A stretch of 64,000 nucleotides of DNA from assembly GCF_014697545.1 (NCBI RefSeq), contig NZ_JACJSA010000007.1, forward strand, positions 124,001 through 188,000, read 5' to 3'. Below are positions 38,035-39,568 of this stretch, piece by piece. The DNA is from Oscillatoria sp. FACHB-1407. GTDB lineage: Bacteria > Cyanobacteriota > Cyanobacteriia > Elainellales > Elainellaceae. The notes under the pieces were generated by a model. It saw only the letters and a list, made by a program, of their open reading frames with translations, was not told the DNA's origin and did no database searches. The position numbers were made by a program, and so were the translations under genes. Position 1 is the first letter of the stretch; the number at the start of each line of letters is the position of its first letter.

Positions 38035-38937
38035 CTATGCATCCGCTTTAGGACCAACGACCATCTGCAAGATCACAGGGTCACCGCCGGTTTGATGGTA
38101 GCGATCTGCCCAGGCTCGAATCACCTCATCTAACTCTTCTAATGCCTGGTCAATGCGATCAGATGGTACATCTAATTCCTCTAAAATTCGCACGACGCGG
38201 GGTTGCCGATCTGCCCAATCCTTCATCATTCGGAAGTAGCGAGCCGTGTCTTCTACCATGATGTAGGTACGCTCTTCTTCGTCTGCTGGCGAGTAGGAAG
38301 CTCGCGTCAGCGCATAAAACGGCATTCCCCAGGGAGAATCAATCCGAGTTACCGTCCCAGAGTAAATCAGGCGGCGTTTGATGTGTTCTGCTAACGCCTC
38401 ACTGAGAGGTAACTTCCGCTCCTCCGGCAGATCCTCCTGAGCACGGGTATGCAGGAATTCAATGATATCCATGAACTGGAAGGCATTGATCAACTGAGCA
38501 TCGGGCAAATTAGAAGGAAGTTTCTCTTCAATTTGCCGTTTCTCATCTTGAGTCAGGCTAGTCCCAGGGATACGGGGTCTTCCCGGTTGCCAGGGATATT
38601 GCTCCAGCCACACATAGGGAAGTTGAATCAGGTATCGTGGCTCTTGAGAACCAAGCATTTTGAGCAGCTTGCCCTCAGTTAACGCCTGCCGTACCTCTTC
38701 AACAATGACTTTGACGCGCTTTGGCTCAATGTGATGCAGGTGCCCCGTCATCCGCAGGTTTTGCTCCTGCTCCAGATACGTCATGTAAATGGCACATTTT
38801 GCAGCCGTTGCCGCTGCATCCAAAAAAGCTCCGTGTCGATGCCCGCCAGTTCGCATTGCACTAAATGCGAGGTACAGCATGATCTGATCCATTGCACTTG
38901 GGCTGAGGCGTTTAATCAGATCGAGGTCGTTGGTCAT
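38035..38937 (-). CDS. hetR: heterocyst differentiation master regulator HetR
   Basis: HetR is the dimeric DNA-binding regulator of cyanobacterial cell differentiation. The 300-residue product starts at ATG 38937 ([11 protein letters not shown]) and is collinear with the 299-residue Anabaena protein. Conserved in place are Cys48 and Ser179, the DNA-binding region with Arg223, and the PatS-contact residues Leu252, Glu253, Glu254, Asp256 and Asp270. Position 152, Ser in Anabaena and once proposed as a catalytic residue, is Ala here. No strong ribosome-binding site is seen. It lies downstream of a patX-like ORF on the same strand. Numbering was counted by hand against remembered homologues. Confidence 0.97.
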
Positions 38938-39370
38938 TTTAGGTGCGATCGCAAATATGATGAACGGTTGTTTTGTACTGAGAGAACAAGCCATCTCTCA
39001 ATCGGTCTAAAGCCTTGTTCTGAAATACCCTTAGCTTAGATCATCCTGATACTTCAGGCACAGCTTAGATGCTGATTTTTCTCAACACACAATAATTTCT
39101 GCTTACCCACTGATTGAAGTCAACAGTAAAACTAACTTTTTTTTGAGGCTTGGGCTAAGCCGACACAAGACTCATCCGGTGATGTTACTGATCCCTAATG
39201 CAGACTGGGAGGCTGTTTACTCAGCCAAGTAGAATCGGACACCCTCCGTATCTAAACCTTCTACCGATCTCAACCCCTCTAATGCGTAGCTCAACCTTTC
39301 ATAACAATTTAATCTGCACCTAAATTAACCGAACCCAGCCGCAATTGCCAAAATTTAACTCAAACAGAGC
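38938..39370. other. long hetR upstream region, no gene
   Basis: A 433-bp leader or promoter region separates hetR from the patX-like ORF. It contains a T8 run near 39138. I see no repeat family and no confirmed regulatory site. Confidence 0.4.
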
Positions 39371-39568
39371 TCAAGACGTGCAAGAGGTACGCCGTCCACT
39401 ACCCCGATGAAACAAAGGCTGATGAATATTTCCGGACTCTGCTAGTTGTCTTTTATATGAAACGCCAGATGCAACACTTTCGGAGCCACAGTTCTGATTT
39501 TCAGAATTATTCAGAATGAGTAGAGCAACAAGCAGAATTGCTGAAAGAATTGGGGTAGAAATCGACAT
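39371..39568 (-). CDS. patX: PatX-like RGSGR pentapeptide precursor
   Basis: The 65-residue ORF from ATG 39568 has a hydrophobic signal-like N-terminus (ILSAILLVALLIL), a polar middle, and HRGSGRR beginning 12 residues from the end (the RGSGR codons lie at 39392-39406). RGSGR is the PatS pentapeptide that inhibits HetR. Short hydrophobic-N-terminus proteins ending in HRG(S/T)GRR beside hetR are known as PatX in filamentous cyanobacteria (Elhai and Khudyakov). It is upstream of hetR on the same strand. A 3-residue longer frame from TTG 39574 also exists, and ORFs on the other strand overlap. Inhibitory role is inferred. Confidence 0.82.
   Translation of the reverse strand: MSISTPILSAILLVALLILNNSENQNCGSESVASGVSYKRQLAESGNIHQPLFHRGSGRRTSCTS

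Follow-up and report, generated by a model that had tools for sequence, protein, structure and literature searches.

PatX was reportedly described by Elhai and Khudyakov in 2018 as accompanying HetR, and the abstract of that study is said to place a DIF1-type motif close upstream of patX genes in general, within 69 nt. PatS is a much shorter peptide of 13–17 amino acids terminating in RGSGR. In Nostoc PCC 7120, according to the available part of one report, PatX is exported and cleaved by PatP, yielding HRGTGR, which binds HetR (PMC12756182); its export, processing and HetR binding are documented for this strain in the accessible text of two reports (PMC12756182, PMC7476756). Peptide–HetR contacts and affinities were reported in a 2015 structure paper, the available portion of which states that E253A abolishes peptide binding by HetR and that E254A, D256A, D270A and D278A weaken it (PMC4649674). 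For Anabaena, the accessible part of a further report places the DIF1 motif TCCGGA 35 bp 5′ of the patS start point, with expression from it requiring HetZ (PMC7377430).

The window analyzed here, a stretch of 64,000 nucleotides from Oscillatoria sp. FACHB-1407, contains a locus resembling that of Leptolyngbya BL0902 (GFS31_32390/32400), where, in the available text, patX lies directly 5′ of its most similar hetR copy behind a predicted DIF1 promoter, and additional hetR-like genes are found in the genome (PMC11298460). The two organisms differ in that nif is reported absent from BL0902 in that text, whereas nifH is present in this genome (TIGR01287, 467.5 bits vs. 394), and in that a second PatX is found here while the same portion of the report mentions none for BL0902 (PMC11298460). 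Since patX directly upstream of hetR has been printed for Leptolyngbya (PMC11298460, as available), the window pair is an instance of a known pairing. The patX–hetR pairing itself is already known in filamentous cyanobacteria, and the main addition is a second, separate PatX with a slightly different promoter motif.

The hetR and patX genes of the window

The hetR gene, encoding the master regulator, was located at 38035..38937 on the minus strand, with its ATG at 38937 and a longer open frame beginning at 38994. Its product passed the NCBIfam HetR equivalog NF009718 (588 bits, cut-off 489), contained the HetR hood domain PF18460 (147.7 bits) and was collinear end to end with the solved PDB HetR chains 4hri/3qod (E about 1e-168). 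Residue numbers were taken from the PDB-chain alignment, in which HetR Met1 is query residue 2. Leu252, Glu253, Glu254, Asp256 and Asp270, which the first-pass annotation had given as the kept PatS-contact residues, were all retained, and so were Arg223 and Asp278, both absent from its list. Among 80 named HetR proteins, R223, R250, L252, E253, E254, D256 and D270 were found together in 71, T254 occurring in six and V252 in three.

The patX ORF (PatX1) is situated at 39371..39568 on the minus strand and encodes a 65-amino acid precursor. Its ATG is at 39568; an in-frame TTG at 39574, two codons 5′, opens the same frame too. HRGSGR occupies residues 54–59 and is followed by the tail RTSCTS (C-terminal end, FHRGSGRRTSCTS). 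A hydrophobic stretch covers residues 5–19 near the N-terminus (mean Kyte–Doolittle hydropathy 2.73) and the first charged residue is E23; as no charged or basic residue stands ahead of the stretch, the N-terminus is not a textbook signal peptide. The spacer between the patX stop and the hetR ATG (38938..39370, minus strand) measures 433 nt. The earlier description of a 65-residue minus-strand ORF with HRGSGRR and a hydrophobic N-terminus, lying 433 bp 5′ of hetR on the same strand, was thus correct in each of these points.

The precursor shares with PatX of Nostoc PCC 7120, as described in the available parts of two reports (PMC7761841, PMC12756182), its short length, the hydrophobic N-terminus and the His-preceded RG(S/T)GR near the C-terminus; a DIF1-type motif stands about 60 nt before its start, and HetR is present. 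It differs from the PCC 7120 protein and promoter in having RGSGR instead of RGTGR and TCCTGA instead of TCCGGA, and it lies under the cut-off of the NCBIfam PatX model. With PatS it has in common the RGSGR ligand of HetR, but at 65 amino acids, with a hydrophobic N-terminus and a six-residue tail after RGSGR, it is not a PatS. The sequence features by which the literature recognizes PatX, namely a small RG(S/T)GR protein, a hydrophobic N-terminus, a close DIF1-type motif and the presence of HetR, were found, and on its sequence the ORF at 39371–39568 is patX.

A profile HMM built from 93 other single-copy PatX ORFs, the window ORF being left out, was run against 1946 window frames and matched the patX ORF with E = 5.6e-10, the next frame having E = 1.7. 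The dN/dS ratio was below 1 in 15 of 15 PatX pairs (range 0.10–0.64), several of which share sequences and so are not mutually independent; in the three pairs that include the window ORF the synonymous divergence was high (pS 0.59–0.70). Identity of the window PatX to its nearest relatives was only 34–38%. The NCBIfam equivalog NF047413 (heterocyst_PatX) gave 20.2 bits and E 7.7e-4 against a curated cut-off of 30, and the ORF is therefore not filed under it. As this model matches 15 of the 39 hetR-linked PatX at E ≤ 0.001 and scores the window ORF below its cut-off, the earlier remark that gene callers may miss the ORF was fair. A TCCGGA at 39431–39436 falls within patX; a comparable position was seen in L035 alone among 39 loci, and it was treated as chance for that reason.

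PatX-type ORFs and HetR copies among relatives

Three surveys were carried out, whose counts are not additive because many species occur in both the named and the unnamed set. In named loci, where open frames of ≤160 amino acids with RG[STNA]GR were sought in the 2.5 kb upstream of hetR and on its strand, a short RGSGR ORF preceded hetR on the same strand in 38 of 80 (39 of 81 with the window); elsewhere in 927 kb of hetR loci, both strands together held nine such frames. Names read as heterocyst-forming genera, Plectonema radiosum included, account for 36 of the 42 misses among the 81 loci; the other six, with names not heterocyst-forming, are L026, L027, L028 (0.6 kb upstream only), L036, L049 and L065. 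HetR was found in 50 of 60 relative genomes, and here frames of ≤220 amino acids with RG(S/T/N)GR within 1.5 kb of hetR were counted for 60 copies, each ≥200 residues long and none of them the window's own; smaller fragments, as well as the split HetR in G033, did not enter the count. After two copies with <700 nt upstream had been set aside, a linked PatX-type frame was present at 44 of 58 copies, one of the 44 being a mere 14-residue stretch, and was not found near the other 14. The class-wide sample consisted of 80 listed, previously unsurveyed copies, two of them set aside; 17 copies of families f32/f34 (presumed heterocyst-formers) and that of G192 (near a contig edge) were omitted. Among the matches listed, 69 of 78 copies had a linked PatX-type ORF, and none was found near nine. 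The ORF is hence conserved upstream of hetR in many relatives, which answers the conservation check named in the first-pass annotation and disposes of a lack of conservation as a refutation.

Five genomes had a sole HetR copy without linked PatX. An unlinked PatX was present in four of them (G012, G038, G054 and G057), and in G045 PatX was found neither linked to hetR nor elsewhere in the genome. The motif was invariant across the 39 PatX rows, in part by construction because the ORFs were chosen by it. All 94 single-copy precursors nevertheless had Ser, where the search would equally have accepted Thr and Asn (Ala too in the named-locus survey), and His, which was no search condition, directly preceded RGSGR in 73 of the 94.

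Of 124 different PatX, 30 carry RG(S/T/N)GR in 2 to 9 copies; nearly all of these are in family f13 and three in f16 (for example L037:2207-2614, L054:213-566, and those of G179, G197, G237 and others at loci L162–L241). Tyr was the commonest residue before the motif in these proteins (45 of 111 copies). They look like polyprotein prohormones.

The second HetR of the Oscillatoria genome (G000:C5; 54–56% identical) has Val254 and Glu256 and no PatX within 1.5 kb. Its start is separated by 15 nt from a preceding gene with a NACHT domain (PF05729, 48 bits; the two genes lie at L130:7763-9877 and 9893-10861), which weakly matched an antiphage NACHT protein (54.8 bits, cut-off 1000). HetR2 and NACHT as a conserved pair was rejected, none being seen by eye in about 0.1–4 kb upstream of the nearest HetR2 (63–65%) of five genomes. 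HetR2 relatives of family f11 (L144, L190, L245, L247) lie, by eye, near frames resembling SigF (L144, L190) and an RsbW-type anti-sigma kinase.

Asn at the peptide-contact site 256 was observed in HetR copies at L131, L134, L136, L137, L140, L141 and L143, and at L182, L183, L185, L186 and L188. Of the eight N256 copies in close relatives, seven lacked a PatX within 1.5 kb, and a 14-residue stretch was all that was found at the eighth. In genus g55 (f13), N256 is accompanied by Asn278, and a PatX-type ORF was present at five of five assessable copies; these five ruled out a rule by which HetR copies leaving patX lose Asp256. The best tree of the first eight N256 copies needs two changes, one change being compatible with the well-supported branches. 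L140 has, 199 nt 5′ of the first hetR copy with N256, a stretch of 13 codons, MKPQSTDGRGSGR, that is PatS-like in size and end; it may represent a reduced PatX or have arisen by chance.

The patX promoter and a second PatX

The patX promoter extends over 39575..39631 on the minus strand. TCCTGA (39631–39626), a one-base variant of the DIF1 motif TCCGGA, has its first T 63 nt ahead of the patX ATG; GTAAC lies 24 nt from that T, and the further elements are a block reading GGGGTAGATAC and the weak right arm of an inverted repeat, TTTGAGACGG. The composite TCCTGA-N17/18-GTA type was found at 39 of 39 PatX loci, with TCCTGA in 38 and TCCGGA in L047. In these loci GTA (one GTT) stands 23–24 nt from where the motif starts; a block resembling GGAATAGAAAC comes next, and then a right arm of partial complementarity. 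In 37 of the 39, the first in-frame ATG lies 57–64 nt from the motif's first base; in L022 and L016 it comes after 40 and 42 nt, respectively, and a later ATG has the usual spacing.

In the inverted repeat 3′ of TCCTGA, considered as a possible RNA hairpin or operator, 71.3% of cells pair. Sliding it lowered both pairing and covariation score, but the number of two-sided changes did not fall; the covariation was marginal, its score being reached by 13 of 500 shuffles and the two-sided pair changes by 200 of 500. The arms were reached by ≤5% of their own shuffles in 17 of 39 loci (the window row scored at another motif).

No NtcA site (GTAN8TAC) and no HetR site (GGGN5CCC) was found within 38900–40000. 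A consensus scan of 38900–39920 gave no sigma-70-type promoter and no terminator, the shuffles giving 1.4 and 1.1, respectively; with neither detected in the spacer, co-transcription of patX and hetR is possible.

When the genome was searched with the 39-row PatX alignment, the window ORF, itself an alignment member, scored 54.7 bits and a second precursor, PatX2, was found with 33.6 bits and E 3.9e-7, a third match being insignificant (15.3 bits, E 0.2). PatX2 (71 amino acids, MRVFTF...SYRGSGRREIVAFPATTLLNHA) is encoded on contig C23; the two HetR of the genome sit on C7 and C5, so it is unlinked. Its promoter, TCCGGA-N17-GTATAGGGAATTAAA, begins 60 nt before the ATG. The promoter model R1, whose source alignment contains the window patX site itself, gave that site 41.4 bits in the 8.1 Mb genome (150 of 1760 candidates scored). 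No significant second R1 site that would indicate a regulon was found among these candidates, the next having 14.6 bits and E 0.21. The sixth-ranked match (12.5 bits, E 0.99) is the PatX2 promoter, recognized once PatX2 had been detected at the protein level, and with so low a placing further sites could well escape R1.

A search of 291 genomes with the PatX2 protein gave 13 matches. TCCGGA-N17/18-GTA was present upstream in nine of them (G000, the genome of the window, and G016, G026, G014, G032, G037, G088, G061 and G044), and each of these nine genes is on a contig other than that of its genome's listed HetR. The other matches had TCCGGA without the spacing (G283), TCCTGA (G062) or TCCTGA beside hetR (G083), and that in G082 had no RG(S/T/N)GR precursor. 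A similar test on 124 different hetR-linked PatX gave TCCTGA in 104, TCCGGA in one and neither in 19. Where a genome had unlinked but no linked PatX, TCCTGA was found in G012, G038 and one of two G057 genes, and neither spelling at the second G057 gene or the G054 PatX. From these linked and unlinked counts, which are of sequences and not of independent events, the DIF1 spelling seems to follow PatX type more than linkage.

PatX1 carries His before RGSGR, and the nearest named relatives of the lineage are not heterocyst genera. PatX2 probably feeds the same peptide pool as PatX1 in this genome. A broader proposal, put forward tentatively and more doubtful than not, is that two PatX precursors use two DIF1 dialects, the usually hetR-linked PatX1 being expressed from TCCTGA-N17/18-GTA and the unlinked PatX2, with its YRGSGRREIVAFP-type tail, from TCCGGA-N17/18-GTA. 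Differing in one base, the dialects would allow a single HetR-inhibiting pool to be supplied under two conditions or by two regulators, and the heterocyst DIF1 regulon would be a later specialization of the TCCGGA dialect. A literature search joining TCCTGA with patX found nothing; the original 2018 PatX description was outside its reach, and no priority is claimed.

Proposed function of PatX1 and alternative explanations

With the ORF, its conservation, the selection on its protein, the motif in its promoter and the retention of the docking residues in HetR all observed here, patX quite probably encodes a secreted-type RGSGR precursor whose peptide would dock on the HetR hood and form a negative loop on HetR. 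The gene has the orientation of hetR, and the two may share a transcript that starts at the DIF1-type promoter. PatX1 would be inserted or exported via its hydrophobic N-terminus and cut to a short HRGSGR-containing peptide, which would act in the same cell or after entering a neighbour. Docking on the hood domain via Glu253/Glu254/Asp256/Asp270/Asp278 would lower HetR–DNA binding and so produce the loop. Export, proteolysis, HetR binding, inhibition and cell-to-cell movement are here modelled on Nostoc PCC 7120. Of the first-pass view that the regulator and a likely intercellular inhibitor form one locus, the linkage of a PatX-type ORF to hetR stands, while the words intercellular inhibitor apply by extension from that strain.

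Inhibition of HetR by PatX1 has to be qualified because, in the available part of the BL0902 report, the effects of PatX on expression in this non-heterocystous Leptolyngbya are largely independent of HetR (PMC11298460). The pairing, too, is not supported by every survey: the accessible text of a study of 474 genomes gives 237 HetR against 159 PatX homologs, with 12% having HetR and no PatX, a Leptolyngbya among them (PMC12756182), a count that may miss some PatX since a signal peptide was required. It is conceivable, if unlikely, that PatX here has another target and that its place beside hetR reflects shared regulation rather than HetR inhibition. The BL0902 transcriptomes of patX, hetR and double deletions, as presented in the available text (PMC11298460), would fit such a target, as would the second PatX and the existence of PatX genes unlinked to hetR. 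Yet what is conserved in the precursor (the constant Ser and the frequent preceding His, the rest of the motif being a search condition) belongs to the sequence known to be bound by the HetR hood, and the docking residues are retained in most HetR copies; both speak for HetR as the target.

The same-strand position 433 nt upstream of hetR, with no terminator or sigma-70-type promoter found between, would also suit a leader peptide whose translation controls the hetR mRNA, the protein itself being irrelevant; dN/dS below 1, spacers varying from about 110 to 1300 nt and the unlinked PatX genes make this very improbable. That so short an ORF, 34–38% identical to its nearest relatives, is a chance open frame can be counted as refuted by its conserved position upstream of hetR and the held-out HMM match (E 5.6e-10), the start codon and promoter being common to relatives and the protein under purifying selection. 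Also very improbable is a three-part module hetR–patX–hetL, in which the divergent pentapeptide-repeat gene at 39920–40801 (plus strand) would encode a HetL-type HetR protector. Its product is, like HetL (PMC7476756, as available; NF047416), a pentapeptide-repeat protein and reached 237 bits over the whole protein on the NCBIfam HetL model NF047416. This is below the cut-off of 260, its best stretches score 94 and 89, a HetL ortholog above the cut-off (330 bits) is found elsewhere on contig C23 (G000:C23:89198-89851), and such a gene occurs upstream of hetR in no other of the 81 loci (flanks 0.6 to 6 kb), being seen >3 kb downstream in two, L034 and L036. The neighbour was rejected as HetL and, for these reasons, not taken as part of a module; the secreted-type precursor acting on HetR is the reading retained.

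Three pentapeptide-repeat genes surround the window hetR–patX pair (35629–36507, 39920–40801 and 40837–41373), and any such gene in the flanks was seen in only two of the 80 other hetR loci. The HetL model matches 88 stretches in this genome. Elsewhere in the window, two tRNA-Asp(GTC) genes (27968–28041 and 29024–29097, plus strand) are about 1 kb apart.

The role of HetR and PatX in filaments without heterocysts has been termed a mystery in print, in the available text of the BL0902 report (PMC11298460). The locus is a clear PatX example that NCBI's model scores below its cut-off, and a profile made from these PatX ORFs would fill this annotation gap. The other DIF1 spelling of PatX2 offers a handle on how two inhibitor genes are told apart.
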